From NCBI GenBank assembly GCA_015075305.1, contig JABTUS010000008.1, positions 124,001 through 188,000 on the forward strand: 64,000 bases of DNA, written 5' to 3'. Origin of the DNA: Opitutaceae bacterium (GTDB taxonomy: Bacteria > Verrucomicrobiota > Verrucomicrobiia > Opitutales > Opitutaceae). The position numbers and the translations under genes were made by a program. This document shows, piece by piece, positions 27,961 through 39,358 of the stretch (its first letter is position 1; every line of letters begins with the position of its first letter). The notes below the pieces were generated by a model. The model made no database searches, had not been told where the DNA came from, and saw only the letters and a program-made list of their open reading frames with translations.

Positions 27961-29037
27961 CTAGGCGGCGGTGAGCGGTTCAAGTCCGCTCAAGCGCATG
28001 GCGGTCTCGGGTGTCGGCGCCCTGCGGGCGGGAATTCCCCTGACCGCCGCGGCTATTGCGGCGATGTGGTCGGGAGTCGAGCCGCAGCAGCCGCCCACGA
28101 GGTTGACAAGTCCGGACGATGCGAAATCGCGCATGATGGAGGCCATGTCGGCGGGGGTCTCGTCGTATCCGCCAAAGGCGTTGGGAAGTCCTGCGTTTGG
28201 GTAGCAGGAGACATGACAGGTGGCGATGCGGGAGAGTTCCTCGATGTAGGGGCGCATGGCGCGCCCGCCGAGTGCGCAGTTGATGCCGACGCAGAAGGGA
28301 TTCGCGTGCCGGATGCTGTTGTAGAATGCCTCGGTCGTCTGGCCTGAGAGTGTTCGACCGGAGGCGTCGGTGATGGTGACGCTGATCATCACGGGAAGCC
28401 GTGCACCGATTTCGTCGAAGACACTCTCGATGGCAAAAAGGGCGGCTTTTGCGTTCAAGGTGTCGAAGATCGTTTCCACCAGGAGGGCGTCGACTCCGCC
28501 CTGAACGAGAGCACGGACCTGTCCGGTGTAGGCGGCGACCACCTGACTCCATGTCACGGCGCGATAGTCGGGTCTATTGACATCGGGCGACAGGGAAAGT
28601 GTGCGATTCAAGGGACCGATGGCGCCGGCAACGAAACATTGGCGAGCGGGATTCTCTTTTTCCACGTTCGCAGCCGCGCGGCGGGCGCAGGCGACTGCGG
28701 CGAGATTGATGTCGGAGACCCTCGGTTCGAGATGGTAGTCGGCCTGTGCGATTGTTGTCGCGCTGAAGGAATTGGTTTCGACGATGTCGGCACCCGCTTC
28801 GAAATAGCGTCGATGTATGTCTTCGATCACGTCGGGACGTGTGATCGAAAGAAGGTCGTTGTTGCCCTTGAGATCGTGCCCGTGACTCGCGAGGGAGGCG
28901 TCGCGAAAGTCCTTTTCCTGCAGGTTGAATCCCTGGATGAGGGATCCCATGGCACCATCGAGGATCACGATCCTTTGGGCAAAGAGCGCGCGAAATGCGG
29001 CGTCGCGTTCGCGATTGAGTGGAGGAAGCGAGGCCAT
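27961..29037 (-). CDS. metH: methionine synthase, homocysteine-binding domain protein (split MetH, N-terminal part)
   Basis: 358 aa equal to the first domain of MetH, a zinc-dependent homocysteine S-methyltransferase barrel. It starts with the typical [16 protein letters not shown] (residues ~22-37). Zinc ligands are Cys254 in GINCALGG and the Cys317-Cys318 pair in [10 protein letters not shown], with the same 63-residue spacing as Cys247 and Cys310/311 of E. coli MetH. It ends [12 protein letters not shown], exactly at the normal domain boundary, with a TAG stop. The two parts lie in different frames. A palindromic operator candidate sits 51-80 nt upstream. Confidence 0.95.
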
Positions 29038-29385: not shown

Positions 29386-29504
29386 GCCGGTGCGAAAATG
29401 CGCGGATCGGCTGTGACTCCTTCATCGCATCAATGAAGCGTGAGAGTTCGAGGGAATCCGTTTTATCCGGAGGCCTCTGCTCTTGCCATAGAAAGCAGTC
29501 CTCC

Positions 29505-31403
29505 ATGCACCATCAGACGGGTGCCCGCCTTGCGGGCATTTTCCGTGCCGGCGTGCCGGCACTTTTCCCAATCGCGTTTGCGGCGTCGACCGTGAATGCC
29601 GCCAATGCGGGTGTTTCAGCCGCCCAGCGCGTCGCCTGGCTTGACCCCTATGTTGTCACGGCCACCAGGACGCCGGCTTCACCCCGGTCCATTGGAAGCG
29701 TCGTCGATGTGATCAGTGCGGCGGATCTCGAACGCCGCCAGGTCTCCTCATTTGCGGAGGCGCTTGCCGCCGCGAACGTTCCCGTGCTGGCGTCGGGTCA
29801 GCGGGGGGCATCAACCTCCATTTTCCTCCGCGGGGCGAATTCCAATCAGACGCTCTTCCTCGTGGACGGCCTGCGCTTCAACGATCCAAACACCGATTAC
29901 GCGGTGACGCTTGGCGGGAGCTGCGTGTCCGCATGCGACAGCCTTGAGATTTCGCATGGCCCGCAGAGCACGCTTTATGGCGGCGAGGCGGTGGGCGGAG
30001 TAATCTCCCTGCGCAGCCAGCGTGGCGCCGGTCAGGGCAGCTCAAAGGTTGCCGTCGAGGGAGGCAGCTTTGGCACGATTCAGGGGGCCTTGTCCTCGCA
30101 GGGCGAACGGGCGGACGGATGGGCGTACAATGTCGCCGTCCAGGGCGGCGTCACGGAAAACGACCGCATCAACAATGATTTCAGGAGCGGCAATCTCACC
30201 GCCCGGGTGGACCGCACGGTCTCGGAATCGCTGGCCCTGGGTGCGACCCTGCGCGGATTTCAGGGAGTCTACGGGTCCCCGGGAAGCCGGTTCACGGACG
30301 ATCCGGACAATGAGGAGCGCGAGTCGAACTGGCTTGGGACTGTATTTGCTGATTGGATACACAGCCGGAGGCTGCGCACGCATGTCGTTGCGGGCGGACA
30401 AGACCGACGCTTTGTTTCGGAGAATCCAACGGCCGGGCGGCCGACCTCGACGACGATCGTCAAGAACCGCCGCGCGGTGATCGACTGGCAGACGACCTTT
30501 GACGGACTGAATGCGCATCGCATCACGGGAGGTTTCACCGGGGAGGCGAATCACACGCTGAACACGGGTTTTGGCGCGATTGACGACAGCCAGCACCTGC
30601 TCGCCTTTTTTCTGCAGGACGAGTTCACGCCCGTCGAGAAACTGCACCTCACGGCGGGATTGAGGCACGACGATTTCGACACCTTTGGACGGCACACGAC
30701 CGGAAAGGCATCGGCCGCCTGGCTCGTGCTGGATGGAAGGCTGAAGCTGCGGGGAAGCTGGGGGACGGCGTTTCGGTCGCCGAGTTTCCTGGACCTCTAT
30801 GGACAGAGCGCCTTCTACGTGGGAAATCCGCATCTTCGGCCGGAGCGCGCGCGGGGAGGGGATGTCGGCCTCGACTGGTACCTGGCTGACGATCGGGGAA
30901 CGGTGAGTGTCACGTGGTTTCAGACACGATTTCGCGATCTGATTGTATCGGACTTTTCCCAGATGCCCAGTTCCGTGGCGAACGTCGGCAGGGCTGAGAC
31001 GCGCGGAGCTGAGCTGTCGATGAAGTGGGCGGTGTCCGAAGGTGCGCAGCTTCAGTTGGGCTACACCTATCTCGAGGCGGACAATGAGTCGAGCGGACGA
31101 CGCCTGCTCCGGCGTCCACGCCACAGCGGCAACATTGATCTCTGGCGCGATTTCGGCGGCGGTTTCAGCGCGGGGGCCGGACTGCGCGTCGTGAGCGGAC
31201 GGGAGGACGTTCATGCCGCGACGTTTGCCACGATCGATGGCGAGGATTACTCAGTCGCCCGAATCTACGCGGCATGGGAGGTGACCGAACGCCTGACGAT
31301 CAAGGCGCGAGTCGAGAACGTGTTCGACGAACGCTACGAGGAGGTTCACGGCTATCCGCAGCTGCCGGTGGGAGGCTTTGCGGGCGTTGAATGGCGGTTC
31401 TGA
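29505..31403 (+). CDS. btuB: TonB-dependent vitamin B12 receptor, BtuB-like
   Basis: 632 aa from the ATG at 29505, which gives a signal peptide ending near VNAANA; the frame is open to 29433 through the riboswitch leader. TonB-box region (LDPYVVTATRTPAS), plug domain (SVVDVISAADLERR, SIFLRGANSNQTLFLVDGLRFNDP, LEISHGPQSTLYGGEAVGGVISL) and a barrel ending VEWRF. The short length (about 610-640) and LVDGLR/STLYGGEAVGGVI wording are typical of BtuB rather than of the long carbohydrate receptors nearby. The upstream cobalamin riboswitch and divergent B12-dependent metH support corrinoid import. BtuF/BtuCD are not in the window. Confidence 0.88.
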   Translation: MHHQTGARLAGIFRAGVPALFPIAFAASTVNAANAGVSAAQRVAWLDPYVVTATRTPASPRSIGSVVDVISAADLERRQVSSFAEALAAANVPVLASGQRGASTSIFLRGANSNQTLFLVDGLRFNDPNTDYAVTLGGSCVSACDSLEISHGPQSTLYGGEAVGGVISLRSQRGAGQGSSKVAVEGGSFGTIQGALSSQGERADGWAYNVAVQGGVTENDRINNDFRSGNLTARVDRTVSESLALGATLRGFQGVYGSPGSRFTDDPDNEERESNWLGTVFADWIHSRRLRTHVVAGGQDRRFVSENPTAGRPTSTTIVKNRRAVIDWQTTFDGLNAHRITGGFTGEANHTLNTGFGAIDDSQHLLAFFLQDEFTPVEKLHLTAGLRHDDFDTFGRHTTGKASAAWLVLDGRLKLRGSWGTAFRSPSFLDLYGQSAFYVGNPHLRPERARGGDVGLDWYLADDRGTVSVTWFQTRFRDLIVSDFSQMPSSVANVGRAETRGAELSMKWAVSEGAQLQLGYTYLEADNESSGRRLLRRPRHSGNIDLWRDFGGGFSAGAGLRVVSGREDVHAATFATIDGEDYSVARIYAAWEVTERLTIKARVENVFDERYEEVHGYPQLPVGGFAGVEWRF

Positions 31404-33381: not shown

Positions 33382-34218
33382 TCAGGCGTACGCGATCGAC
33401 TCGCAGCCGTACACGGGTCTCGATGAGACAAAATAGTCCCTGCCGACATCCGTTTGACTCTGACGGTCAAATTCCGGGGCGCATTCAGCGATGAGTTTGC
33501 GAAGGTTTTCCCGGGCCCGGGCGATGCGGCTCTTGACTGTGCCGACATTGATTCCGAGCGTGCGCGCGATGTCCTCGTAGGGCAGATGCAGCGTATTGCG
33601 CATCGTGAGGATTTCGCGTTGGCGTGCATCGAGCTTCTCCATGCAGGAGGCGATCAGGTCGGCGAATTCATTGGTCACCGTCTCCTGCGCGGGATCGCCG
33701 CGGTCAGCGGCTATGAAGTCGCCCAACGTCGCCCCAGTTTCCTCACCGAAAGGTCGATCGATGGAAATGCTGTCCTGCCGGCGTCGTCGGAAGAAATACC
33801 AATAGCGATTGCGGGCGAGATTGAGGGCGATGCGGTAGAGCCAGGTGGCCAGTGAAGAGTCACCGCGAAAGTTTGCGAGTCCGCGGTGCACTCGGAGGAA
33901 GGTGTCCTGGGCGATTTCCTCGGCGTCGGCGCGGTTCCGCAGCAGATTCAAAGCGAGACCCATGATCCTGCCATAGTAGCGGTTCATGATTTCGGTGAAC
34001 GCCGTTTCGTCGCCCGTGGTGAAGCGTTTGACAAGAGCAGCGTCGAAGGCGGCCTCGGCCTTCGTCTCAGGCTGGGTGCGTTCGCGGTCTGCGGTTGCGA
34101 CTTTGGCACCGGGCGTTGGATGTGCGATGGATGCCTGTCGGTTGGGCTCCGGATTGGAGAATATCTGACGTGCGGAGCGTGAAGGCTTCTGAGGCTGATT
34201 TGTGAGTGTGGCGGACAT
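33382..34218 (-). CDS. ECF-type RNA polymerase sigma factor
   Basis: Sigma-70 region 2 (GDETAFTEIMNRYYGRIMGLALNLL, then ADAEEIAQDTFLRVHRGL and LATWLYRIALNLARN) and region 4 (CMEKLDARQREILTMRNTLHLPYEDIARTLGINVGTVKSRIARARENLRKLI, a clear helix-turn-helix) are present, with no region 1 or 3. An N-terminal ~60-residue polar extension is unusual. Start chosen at the ATG 34218; an upstream in-frame start at 34266 would add 16 residues. No anti-sigma gene is adjacent: the neighbours are recQ and an OppA-like lipoprotein. The stimulus is unknown. Confidence 0.9.
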   Translation of the reverse strand: MSATLTNQPQKPSRSARQIFSNPEPNRQASIAHPTPGAKVATADRERTQPETKAEAAFDAALVKRFTTGDETAFTEIMNRYYGRIMGLALNLLRNRADAEEIAQDTFLRVHRGLANFRGDSSLATWLYRIALNLARNRYWYFFRRRRQDSISIDRPFGEETGATLGDFIAADRGDPAQETVTNEFADLIASCMEKLDARQREILTMRNTLHLPYEDIARTLGINVGTVKSRIARARENLRKLIAECAPEFDRQSQTDVGRDYFVSSRPVYGCESIAYA

Positions 34219-34439
34219 GGCGTGGCGCGCTGCGGATTGAAGCGGAAATGGGCTCGGAATGCCCAACGCGCCTGTAACTCAATCCGTGCCATCACCCATC
34301 GCGCATGCGTAAATATACCGCCTCAAAACGCTTACCGAGCTGCCTGTGATTATTCAGTGCGCAGAAAGCGTGCAATCTGAGCGACGCTTGCGCGCCGTTC
34401 TTGCAGAATGCATGACGGGGCGCCCAACAACCCGCGCAA

Positions 34440-36119: not shown

Positions 36120-36931
36120 GGTGCCGGGCTGGCGGAGGGGACCTCTCGAAGTCTTGATTCAATCGTGTTCATGCGCGCGACGAGATCAGCCTCGATCTTC
36201 TTTCGGTCGGTGCTGTTGACGATGCTCATCTTGGAGACATCCTTGATGACATTCGCGGGAAGCGTCAGCAGCCGGGTCAGCACACCCTGGTCCTTGAAGG
36301 TGCTGAGGTAGAGGGCGGTGACCTCATGTGAGAGCGAAAGCGATTCCCTCGCGACGGCCTGTGTGGCTGCGAGGTCGTTGTGCAGCTTCTGATTCTTTGC
36401 CAGTTCGGCGGTGAGAAGATTGCCGACTTGATCGGAAATCCGCTGGCTGTAGCCGCTGATGGCGTCGCGCGTGAGCGATTGATCGGAAGCCATCTGCTCG
36501 AGGATGGGCTGGATGCGCGTGGCAAGGCGGTCGCCTACCTTGTCGACCTGTTCATTCTGCTGAGCTTCCGCCTCCTCGGGAGTCTTGGGGAGCGCATTGT
36601 AAGGTTGGATCTTCACCGCGATGGCCTCGGCGAGCTTGTTGACGCGCTCCTCGGCGGCCTTGGACATTTCCGCATCGGTCATGAAAACATCGGCGGAGCG
36701 TTTCGAGATGGCATCCTTGAGGATGCCGTTCACGGCATCGATCTGCCGCCGGCTTTCATCGGCCGCGGCACGGATTTCCGCGTTGGTTTGTTCCCGCACG
36801 ACCGCGAGTTCGCGCTGCTGTGCTGCAATGGTTTCTGAAATCGTGCGTTTATGCAGCCAGTAGGCTGCGCCGCCGATGATCAACACGGTGATGATCACGG
36901 CCGGAAGTTGTTCTTTAAGTTTTTGCCACAT
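36116..36931 (-). CDS. membrane-anchored coiled-coil protein of unknown function, coupled to the OppA-like lipoprotein
   Basis: 271 aa from the ATG at 36931 (MWQKLKEQLPAVIITVLIIGGAAYWLHK): one N-terminal membrane helix, then long charged helical regions (ETIAAQQRELAVVREQTNAEI, MSKAAEERVNKLAEAI) likely to form a coiled coil, and a C-terminal segment (LTRLLTLPANVIKDVSKMSI) before a polar tail. The open frame runs to 37030 but the extra residues include several Cys and look non-coding. The GTGA overlap links it to the substrate-binding lipoprotein. I recognise no named domain; methyl-accepting or scaffold-like roles would be guesses. Confidence 0.75.
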   Translation of the reverse strand: MWQKLKEQLPAVIITVLIIGGAAYWLHKRTISETIAAQQRELAVVREQTNAEIRAAADESRRQIDAVNGILKDAISKRSADVFMTDAEMSKAAEERVNKLAEAIAVKIQPYNALPKTPEEAEAQQNEQVDKVGDRLATRIQPILEQMASDQSLTRDAISGYSQRISDQVGNLLTAELAKNQKLHNDLAATQAVARESLSLSHEVTALYLSTFKDQGVLTRLLTLPANVIKDVSKMSIVNSTDRKKIEADLVARMNTIESRLREVPSASPAP

Positions 36932-37041
36932 GGAGGTTTGGAGGGGACTATCGGAGTTTAGCGCAGACCGAAGCGAATGCAATGCCGCGGTGCATGCGGA
37001 AAAGGCGTTGTTTTTGGAACCGCAAACCACACCTTCGCCGC

Positions 37042-37368
37042 ATGGGTCTCAATCGGGCAGAGCAAACGCTTTCTGATTACGTTCTGACACATGTGGATGA
37101 GAGACAGTATTGGCAGGAGAAGGTTCGAGAGGTCTGTCGAAATTTTTCTGATGAGCACGAAGCAGCCCGCCGGTTGGAGGCAGCAATCAAGGTCTATTTT
37201 CGCGAACGAGCGTCAGTGGTGAGGGAATTGGGAGAGGTTGCCGCCCGAGAAGGGTTGACGGCAGTCAGCCTGCGCACGCTTGCCGAATACTGGATTCGCG
37301 TCTGGACGGTTCCGCGCAAGAAAGTCGTCCGAAGTCGATCGATTATGGATCGAATTGATCTACAATGA
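37042..37368 (+). CDS. conserved-looking small hypothetical protein (108 aa)
   Basis: From the ATG at 37042 (MGLNRAEQTLSDYVLTHVDERQYWQEKV) the protein is mostly helical and charged, with no signal peptide or membrane helix. YWQEKVREVCRNFSDEHEAARRLEAAI and LRTLAEYWIRVWTVPRKK are distinctive and look coding rather than random. It is divergent from the preceding membrane-anchored gene, with 110 nt between. I do not recognise a family; the basic C-terminus might suit nucleic-acid contact, but that is only a guess. Confidence 0.6.
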   Translation: MGLNRAEQTLSDYVLTHVDERQYWQEKVREVCRNFSDEHEAARRLEAAIKVYFRERASVVRELGEVAAREGLTAVSLRTLAEYWIRVWTVPRKKVVRSRSIMDRIDLQ

Positions 37369-37546
37369 TTAACGGTGAAAAGCCAACGGGCAAACCGCGA
37401 TCGGGCGTGCCTCCTATGCACGACGGGTTGAATCGGTGTTTGCTGCAGCGACGGACGAAAAATGTCATAGGGCGCTTACCAAGAGCTAGTTGTGTATATC
37501 GCGCAGAAATCTTAAAACACTTCGAACGTTTCTGAGGCACCAGCGT

Positions 37547-37655
37547 CTTTCTTTATGGTTCTGGTTATAACTTCTCCCGCTTAGCGGGAGATTTGGGGTA
37601 ACAAAGAAAGCAATGGGCGGACTGCTTAGGGGTAGGCAGCCCGCCCTCTTTTTTT
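37547..37655 (+). ncRNA. structured RNA of unknown class with terminator, upstream of the PIN-PhoH gene
   Basis: The 451-nt gap 37369-37819 has no convincing gene but a compact set of helices on the + strand. CTTTCTTT (37547-37554) pairs with AAAGAAAG (37603-37610). GTTA (37564-37567) pairs with TAAC (37599-37602), stacking on the first. An inner hairpin CTCCCGC-TTA-GCGGGAG occupies 37574-37590. A strong terminator hairpin with T tract follows at 37615-37655. The pattern is that of a free small RNA or a leader with attenuation. I do not recognise a riboswitch class. The rest of the gap shows nothing else I can name. Confidence 0.55.
37615..37655 (+). terminator. intrinsic transcription terminator
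   Basis: Inverted arms 37615-37625 (GGGCGGACTGC) and 37636-37646 (GCAGCCCGCCC) pair in 10 of 11 positions around a 10-nt loop and are followed by a T-rich tract at 37647-37655 on the + strand. It ends the structured RNA, 165 nt before the PIN-PhoH start, so either it closes a small RNA or serves as an attenuator for the downstream gene. Confidence 0.8.
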
Positions 37656-37819
37656 GTCCGAATAGCGGGATGTCTTCGCGAGAAGATGGGATGCGCATGC
37701 CGCGCTGACGCGTCGATTTTTCGTGTAAACCGTTGCTGCTTCAAATTCCTGCATCGTTGGTGAAGTCGAACATCGACACTCCCCTGGCGGCAGGATATCC
37801 CCATGTTATTCACAAAGCG

Positions 37820-39358
37820 ATGGAACACTTGAGCGGGACTCCTGCCCTTGAATCGCAACCTGAGGTTTCCACGAAGATCAAGACCTTCGTCCTGGATACC
37901 AATGTTCTCCTCCATGATCCTCAATCGATCTTCAATTTTGAGGACAACAACCTCGCCATACCGGTCGAGGTGCTCGAGGAATTGGATGCCATCAAGACTG
38001 AGCAGTCGACCGAGCGCGGGAGGAATGCGCGTCGCGTGCATCGCATCCTGCAGGAACTTCTTCCCGATTCGCGTTCGATGCTGGAGGGGGTGCGGCTTCC
38101 CAACGGCGGCACGCTTTCGGTCATCATCAATCGCTATTTGATCGAGAATCGAAATGACACGCCGGCGATGCTGCGACTCCGCGCGATCCTGCCGGATCTG
38201 ACGAAGAAGGACAATCGCATCATTGCCTGCGCGCTGTTCGTTCAGGAGCAGTTTCCTCCTCCAACGATACTCGTGACGAAGGATGTCAATGTTCAGCTCA
38301 AGGCGCGTGCCGTCGGTCTGGAATCCGAGGATTACCTGAACGACAAGGTGCCGGAGGTCGATGAACAGTCCTATCGGGAGATTCCCGTCAGCATTTATGA
38401 GATGCAGCGTTTCTGTTCCGAGGGTGAGCTCGACATTGGAATCGGATCGACGGAAGGACTGCACTTGAATGAATACGTCCTGCTGCGATCGGACCAGGAC
38501 AAGACGATGCCCGCCCGCTGGTTCGGAGATGGGCTCGTGCGGCGATTGAAGATTCCCGAATTCGTGAAGGCGCCGGGCGGCATACCAATCCGCGCGCGCA
38601 ATCTTGAGCAGCAGTTCTTCATGGATGCCCTGCTTGATGACAGCATTTCACTGATCACCTGCTTTGGTAAGGCCGGCACGGGCAAGACGCTGCTTTCAAC
38701 AGCCTGCGCCCTGCATCAGACCTGCGATGAAAGTGGACGGTATGACGGCCTGTCGATTTCCCGTCCGGTCTTTGCCCTGGGGAAGGATATTGGCTACCTG
38801 CCGGGCTCCCTGGAGGAGAAGATGAAGCCCTGGCTGCAGCCCTATCACGACGCCCTTGAAGTGCTGATTCCTTCAAAGCCCCTGAAGGAACCTCAGTTCG
38901 CAACCAAGAAGGTCGCAAAGAAGAAGGCGAAGAAACGCGAGTCGGTGATGGCCATGATGGCCGCGCAGTCATCTACGAACGGGAGCCAGCCCAGCACTCT
39001 TTCGACGCCGGCCACGCCAATGAAGCCCTATGAACGGCTTCTTCGCTCCGGGATAGTTGAGATTGAGGCGCTGGCGTTCATCCGAGGACGGTCGATCGCG
39101 CGCCGCTTCTTCATTCTCGACGAGGCGCAGCAACTGACGCCGCACGAGGTCAAGACCGTGATCACGCGCATAAGCGAGGGTTCGAAAATTGTCCTGATCG
39201 GCGATCCGGCGCAGATTGACAATCCGTATGTCGATGCGCGCAGCAACGGGCTGGTCTATGCCCACAATCGCATGAAGGGACAGGCCCTTCATGCGCATGT
39301 GCAGCTCACGAAGGGCGAGCGATCGAAACTGGCGGAGCTTGCGGCGGACCTGCTCTGA
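37820..39358 (+). CDS. PIN domain and PhoH-like ATPase fusion protein
   Basis: 512 aa from the ATG at 37820; a TTG at 37733 is in frame but the added residues are not family-like. The N-terminal PIN nuclease domain begins TFVLDTNVLLHDP with further acidic residues (EVLEELDAIK, KKDNRIIACAL, LVTKDVNVQLKA). The C-terminal PhoH domain has Walker A GKAGTGKTLLS and Walker B-like FFILDEAQQLTP with IGDPAQID. PIN-PhoH proteins are RNA helicase/ribonuclease-like. Between the Walker motifs sits a Lys-rich insert (KKVAKKKAKKRE). The structured RNA with terminator lies directly upstream. Confidence 0.93.
   Translation: MEHLSGTPALESQPEVSTKIKTFVLDTNVLLHDPQSIFNFEDNNLAIPVEVLEELDAIKTEQSTERGRNARRVHRILQELLPDSRSMLEGVRLPNGGTLSVIINRYLIENRNDTPAMLRLRAILPDLTKKDNRIIACALFVQEQFPPPTILVTKDVNVQLKARAVGLESEDYLNDKVPEVDEQSYREIPVSIYEMQRFCSEGELDIGIGSTEGLHLNEYVLLRSDQDKTMPARWFGDGLVRRLKIPEFVKAPGGIPIRARNLEQQFFMDALLDDSISLITCFGKAGTGKTLLSTACALHQTCDESGRYDGLSISRPVFALGKDIGYLPGSLEEKMKPWLQPYHDALEVLIPSKPLKEPQFATKKVAKKKAKKRESVMAMMAAQSSTNGSQPSTLSTPATPMKPYERLLRSGIVEIEALAFIRGRSIARRFFILDEAQQLTPHEVKTVITRISEGSKIVLIGDPAQIDNPYVDARSNGLVYAHNRMKGQALHAHVQLTKGERSKLAELAADLL

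Follow-up and report, generated by a model that had tools for sequence, protein, structure and literature searches.

Several bacterial small RNAs (sRNAs) are encoded as sets of sibling copies, including Qrr, OmrA/OmrB, LhrC and CcsR, and several of these carry a C-rich anti-Shine-Dalgarno motif. Other sRNAs, such as MicA and RybB, depend on Sigma-E, and ECF promoters are marked by boxes of the GRAMC...CGTC type. Among further structured RNAs, 6S RNA, about 180 nt in length, folds into a long closed stem that is interrupted by a central bubble; the protein CsrA needs a GGA core.

Here we describe an element in the window, that is, the whole 64,000-nucleotide stretch of an Opitutaceae genome that was analysed (contig JABTUS010000008.1), which is predicted to be one member of a multi-copy sRNA family of Opitutaceae and their relatives. 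Like Qrr, OmrA/OmrB, LhrC and CcsR, this family consists of near-identical copies, some of them in tandem, with exposed motifs and intrinsic terminators; unlike those sRNAs, its sequence is unrelated (no Rfam match), its Opitutaceae motif is the G-rich GGGGUA rather than a C-rich one, and Hfq was not found in the Opitutaceae lineage (21 genomes). With MicA and RybB the window copy shares a predicted ECF-sigma-like promoter directly before an sRNA with an intrinsic terminator, whereas an Opitutaceae sister copy has a TTGAC-type promoter, Hfq was not found, and the signal for pairing with receptor mRNAs was seen in the source genome and was not replicated elsewhere. As in CsrB and RsmZ, a short motif is repeated in a loop and a linker and the RNA is present in several copies; unlike CsrB and RsmZ, the Opitutaceae RNA has two motifs only, lacking the GGA core, and CsrA was detected in 12 of 21 Opitutaceae genomes.

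Locus and conserved structure

The element is located between a + strand open reading frame (ORF) ending at 37368 and a gene with PF13638 and PF02562 domains (PIN-PhoH), in a gap that, from a reading of the ORFs, contains no plausible + strand genes (Table 1). The preliminary description of this gap had the sequence right, and the 7-bp hairpin and the terminator with its T tract to which it pointed are present, conserved and covarying. The terminator stem contains one A/C mismatch (37621/37640) ahead of the T7 run, to which we attribute the fact that a simple terminator scan of 36900-37950 listed nothing. Folding of 37540-37655 yields a minimum free energy of -45.8 kcal/mol (z -2.83), with 3 of 200 shuffles equally stable.

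Table 1. Predicted features of the window copy and its upstream boxes (window coordinates)
Feature	Position	Strand	Basis
-35-like box, ECF-sigma type (CGAACGTTT)	37523..37531	+	sequence; GRAMC...CGTC pattern among PhoH-locus copies
-10-like box, same promoter (GCGTCTTT)	37543..37550	+	CGTC-TT in 11/11 aligned PhoH-locus rows
Predicted small RNA, ~100 nt	37556..37655	+	copy matched by blastn and covariance model
Hairpin 1, perfect, 7 bp, loop UUA (CTCCCGC-TTA-GCGGGAG)	37574..37590	+	conserved, covarying
Linker motif UUUGGGGUAAC, first G-rich motif	37592..37602	+	consensus predicts mostly single-stranded
A-rich linker AAAGAAAGCAA	37603..37613	+	conserved across the 85-copy alignment
Terminator stem-loop	37615..37646	+	99.8% of cells paired; double changes in 10 of 12 consensus pairs
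Second G-rich motif UAGGGGUA, terminator loop	37627..37634	+	AGGGGUA invariant in 85 copies
T tract (T7) of intrinsic terminator	37649..37655	+	sequence

The evolutionary evidence for structure is far stronger than the folding energy. We aligned 85 distinct copies from 93 seen in the fetched loci, leaving out identical copies, one truncated copy (L061) and duplicate loci; some of the weakest blastn places lay outside the fetched loci and hence outside the alignment. The consensus comprises 19 pairs in two separate hairpins over about 90 nt, with 98.5% of cells paired and double changes in 15 of the 19 pairs, so that the alignment of relatives which the preliminary description had proposed revealed strong covariation. 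Shuffles averaged 9.6 pairs with double changes and 85.0% of cells paired, none of 500 reaching the observed level, and structures slid along the alignment paired at most 45.6% of cells.

For the nested outer helices that had also been drawn, the complementarity is present but a conserved structure is not. Across 11 PhoH-locus sequences from 11 loci, in which hairpin 1 and the terminator are 100% paired, the outer helix CTTTCTTT/AAAGAAAG (37547-37554 with 37603-37610) is 81.8% paired, with double changes in two of eight pairs (4 cells), and the helix GTTA/TAAC (37564-37567 with 37599-37602) is 79.1% paired, with double changes in none of its four pairs. Furthermore, the 5' arm CTTTCTTT overlaps the GCGTC of the -10-like box (37543-37547), and thus should lie mostly upstream of the transcript. 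Judging from the boxes, the 5' end of the RNA would be near 37556, and its 3' end is placed by the T tract.

A structured RNA of no known class, as had been suggested, is consistent with the Rfam searches. With Rfam 15, the only match in the whole window was a cobalamin riboswitch elsewhere; the 281 bases around the element gave a best E of 1.7, with all scores under the gathering score, and eight loci with other copies gave nothing at E up to 1. The 6S RNA family, named beforehand as a possible hit, was among those without a match, and the two hairpins over about 90 nt do not correspond to its closed stem. The cobalamin riboswitch (RF00174; 29148-29387, + strand; 32.8 bits against a gathering score of 31.5) precedes a TonB-dependent receptor gene (29433-31403, + strand; Plug match at contig positions 153685-154002), and an ORF for a methionine-synthase-like homocysteine methyltransferase (27961-29037) is present nearby on the opposite strand.

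Two G motifs, UUGGGGUAA in the linker and UAGGGGUA in the terminator loop, are nearly unchanging across the 85 copies. Within the linker GGGGUAA, G33-G35 and U36 are invariant and G32 is nearly so. In 22 order-level copies, GGGGUA is kept in the terminator loop of all 22 (by eye), and a strict check for both G motifs passes in 16. Hairpin 1 keeps its place outside Opitutaceae, with a varying loop (UUA-type, UACG or GNRA in these 22 copies). This 5' hairpin would be a structural cap that probably stabilises the RNA, and the G motifs would be the functional part. The 85-copy alignment is the unbiased set for motif conservation, given that about 120 of the 214 loci considered below were found with a pattern holding both motifs, which biases motif frequencies among them.

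Distribution

A blastn search with a 221-base query identified two further copies in the source genome and matches in 42 of 57 genomes, the source genome included. The covariance model built from the 85 copies matched all 100 sampled Opitutaceae genomes, representing 49 of 49 genera. Each genome had 1-7 matches at E up to 0.001, of which a few are weak, partial or on the opposite strand. In a phylum-wide draw, the same model matched 63 of 387 genomes, of which 36 belong to the same family, 26 to the same order and one to the same class; this sole match beyond the order (L330, genome G371) was rejected as false, both G motifs being absent. With a broader covariance model, matches were obtained in 110 of 177 genomes of the order and, in a class draw, in 32 of 188 genomes, all 32 in the same order. 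Of the 67 order-level misses 20 are listed, among them five genomes of family f2 and several with sizes near 1 Mb; searches of more than 40 genomes used stricter filters, and thus these misses are no proof of absence.

A motif-pattern scan recovered, among the matches listed (80 of at least 120), Opitutaceae, other Opitutia, Pelagicoccus and a Puniceicoccaceae MAG; Opitutaceae bacterium EW11, strain IMCC26134, Ereboglobus sp. and Pelagicoccus mobilis are among the carriers that it names. In the NCBI taxonomy the class Opitutia includes both Opitutales, with Opitutaceae, and Puniceicoccales, with Pelagicoccus; the order used in genome sampling is presumably the wider GTDB order. The listed matches also include one Parcubacteria record, LBRC01000022.1, in which an AT-rich lspA-like gene runs straight into the sRNA, followed by the start of a DAHP synthase gene; we consider this contig chimeric and do not count Parcubacteria as carriers.

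Tandem copies occur in some genomes. At one such locus (L328, G217:C1:3953200-3956800), two of the tandem copies contain an extra linker hairpin, CCTAGCG...CGCTAGG. Copies that are dispersed and sometimes tandem could suggest that the element is mobile or repetitive DNA and not a gene for an RNA, but two of the positions are common to many genera, compensatory changes keep the pairing, the T tract is on one strand, promoter-like boxes are present, and viral contigs contain no exact match to the core pattern. This reading is disfavoured, and we regard it as extremely improbable.

Genomic neighbourhoods and promoter-like boxes

The neighbourhoods of 214 copies were compared: 41 are at the PhoH/109-aa locus, 86 at a DAHP-synthase locus, and 87 are elsewhere or have flanks too short for assignment ('other' copies). 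Two weak copies (score below 45) were dropped before the promoter, neighbour-orientation and motif counts, and the promoter count was made on the 206 that remained after removal of those with too little upstream sequence. The locus takes part of its name from a conserved protein of about 109 aa (36982-37368, + strand, in the window), which adjoins the PhoH-locus sRNA copy also where PhoH is not seen nearby and for which no Pfam family scored above the cut-off.

The boxes upstream of the RNA differ between loci. At the DAHP locus, 81 of 82 copies carry TTGAC (6.25 in shuffles), in most cases 45-49 bases ahead of the linker GGGG; it is also present in 45 of 84 'other' copies (5.6 in shuffles) and in none of 40 PhoH-locus copies (2.56 in shuffles). 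At the PhoH locus, by contrast, the ECF-sigma-like pattern GRAMC...CGTC occurs in 14 of 40 copies versus 0.33 in shuffles, and a second ECF-like pattern in 17 of 40 versus 0.15; by eye, more of these copies show GGAAC without CGTC. The window copy, with GAAC at 37524-37527 and CGTC at 37544-37547, was missed by the first ECF pattern and matched by a strict pattern. In 1.24 Mb of the source genome the window copy was the sole match to the strict pattern, a result that is uninformative with regard to the idea of a shared ECF regulon, which we did not retain. Outside the family, CTTGC or TTGAC precedes 16 of 22 order-level copies, versus 1.37 in shuffles. In several tandem pairs each copy has a separate -35-like box. 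Thus, as far as the boxes can be read, the window copy would have an ECF-sigma-like promoter and its sister before DAHP synthase a TTGAC-type promoter; with two promoter types, the same RNA output would answer more than one signal. Transcription of the copies and their sigma dependence are predicted, as is the 5' end. A gene for an ECF-type sigma factor, as read from its translation, is present in the window at 33382-34266 (- strand), about 3.3 kb from the sRNA copy.

The orientation of adjacent genes bears on two further explanations. Structured RNA and a terminator before a co-oriented gene, found here at two loci, are shared with leader attenuators and riboswitches, and an attenuating riboswitch, with autoregulation of PIN-PhoH, had been considered in the preliminary description next to a small RNA. 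Were the downstream gene (PIN-PhoH or DAHP synthase) controlled in cis by an attenuator or riboswitch in its leader, this would account for the order of promoter, structured RNA, terminator and co-oriented gene, the last seen in 79 of 80 scorable DAHP-locus copies (one convergent) and 24 of 37 scorable PhoH-locus copies. However, the same RNA precedes unrelated genes at many loci, convergent downstream genes follow 40 of the 73 scorable 'other' copies (33 have a co-oriented gene) and 13 of the 37 at the PhoH locus, and the terminator is strong, the consensus containing no conserved competing pairing. The attenuator reading is largely refuted and very unlikely for either gene, and regulation of PIN-PhoH in cis by the sRNA is just as improbable.

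Alternatively, the element might belong to the upstream genes and be no more than their conserved terminator or a fragment of their 3' UTR, as its ending in an intrinsic terminator and the presence of a + strand gene upstream of the PhoH-locus copies (26 of 36 scorable) might suggest. We consider this highly improbable: across the 85 copies, conservation of hairpin 1 and the linker equals that of the terminator, upstream genes point away from the RNA in most copies that could be scored (divergent in 71 of 75 at the DAHP locus and in 50 of 80 'other' copies), and the RNA is preceded by -35-like boxes of its own.

Taken together, the unrelated loci, the convergent downstream genes and the separate boxes of tandem copies argue for a free-standing sRNA gene and not a PIN-PhoH attenuator. 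The small RNA reading of the preliminary description is thus borne out by dispersed copies with promoter-like boxes (recognised by sequence only, and not in every copy) and a conserved terminator. Each copy would comprise promoter-like boxes of its own, an exposed linker and an intrinsic terminator, and we are highly confident that the element is such a gene.

Candidate partners and targets

Hfq (PF17209) was detected in none of 21 Opitutaceae genomes, in a search whose control was positive in 5 of 14 genomes, E. coli included, and an Hfq-dependent sRNA was therefore rejected. CsrA was found in 12 of the 21, including the source genome, with at least two of the misses being incomplete genomes.

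The free-standing sRNA might instead act on a protein, which it would bind and sequester via its two identical G-rich motifs much as CsrB or 6S RNA does. The presence of two short, almost identical motifs in the terminator loop and the linker, the several copies per genome, some in tandem, and the lack of a reproducible target motif at gene starts would fit this possibility. Against it, the GGA core is absent, CsrA was found in only part of the Opitutaceae genomes examined (some of its misses being incomplete genomes), and GGGGTA is not enriched at gene starts (14 seen versus 12.1 expected), unlike what would be expected of a shared mRNA site. Sequestration of a protein is accordingly possible but rather unlikely, and a CsrB-type RNA in the strict sense was rejected on the discrepancy between the RNA (100 of 100 Opitutaceae genomes) and CsrA (12 of 21).

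The most likely mode of action of the sRNA would be in trans and without Hfq, UUGGGGUAA in the linker and AGGGGU in the terminator loop pairing with C-rich stretches of mRNAs. We give base pairing in trans a slightly better than even chance, and with some confidence prefer, as the overall explanation, a free-standing sRNA gene that acts in this way.

We searched for complements of the motifs at gene starts. At 1411 starts from the source and other genomes, after removal of 76 windows near sRNA copies, TACCCC was seen 20 times versus 19.3 expected, and is neither enriched nor depleted. An apparent depletion of TACCCC at 879 source-genome starts (3 sense, 11 antisense, -100..+60) disappeared with the 1411 starts and was dismissed as small-sample noise.

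Top duplex scores together with 12 receptor-like genes gave rise to the idea that TonB-dependent receptors are targets. Of the 84 Plug matches of the source genome, 82 were used to evaluate it (two fragments omitted), and 55 of the 82 lie outside the stretches that suggested the idea. Compared with 857 other starts, the 82 receptor starts of this genome pair better with the linkers of the three copies (p 0.0005, 0.0007 and 0.00006; 0 of 60 shuffled linkers as good for each), and the difference persists for those 55 receptor starts alone (p 0.003-0.005) and for the 82 receptors versus 267 secreted-like starts (p 0.003-0.005). For the terminator loop alone, 7 of 60 shuffles were as good. CCCCA is the top 5-mer of 687 at the receptor starts of the source genome (22 of 82 versus 72 of 857), and TCCCC, CCACC and CCCC are also raised there, with TACCCC in 0 of 82. 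The CCCCA rate is 0.27, versus 0.23 in shuffled windows, and is attributed to base composition.

In other genomes, CCCCA was present in 2 of 22, 2 of 30 and 4 of 20 receptor starts versus 74 of 534 background starts, with pairing p values of 0.3-0.8, and in 4 of 28 for genomes without a match to the RNA. This replication is imperfect, as starts were called by a crude scorer and best-scoring Plug matches were used; the set of 22 consists of the best-scoring Plug matches of relatives (25 of 27 loci, 22 usable). Given that the source-genome signal was not replicated in other genomes, TonB-dependent receptors are not claimed as targets and are retained as a lead only. Plug-domain matches number 84 in the source genome, 34-140 in eight genomes of the same genus, 45-73 in five other Opitutaceae genera, and 1-10 in six members of the class in which the RNA had no match. 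A family-wide, Hfq-independent regulon, in which TTGAC- and ECF-driven copies would tune the very large TonB-receptor repertoire by pairing G seeds with C-tracts around start codons, is speculative and improbable.

Implications

Outside over-represented phyla, annotated sRNAs average one or two per bacterial genome, according to PMC9029176. No published work on sRNAs of the Opitutaceae group was found in the literature searched, most subscription papers being outside the reach of that search. As a bacterial sRNA gene, the element is ordinary in kind, and within what was searched it is new as a family; its universality in Opitutaceae, the double G motif and the two promoter types are unusual. 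The family is a candidate new Rfam family. It comprises a strongly conserved RNA, matched in 100 of 100 sampled genomes of a bacterial family with Hfq found in 0 of 21, and thus provides a handle on how bacteria without Hfq may use sRNAs and on how one RNA would be wired to two promoter types.
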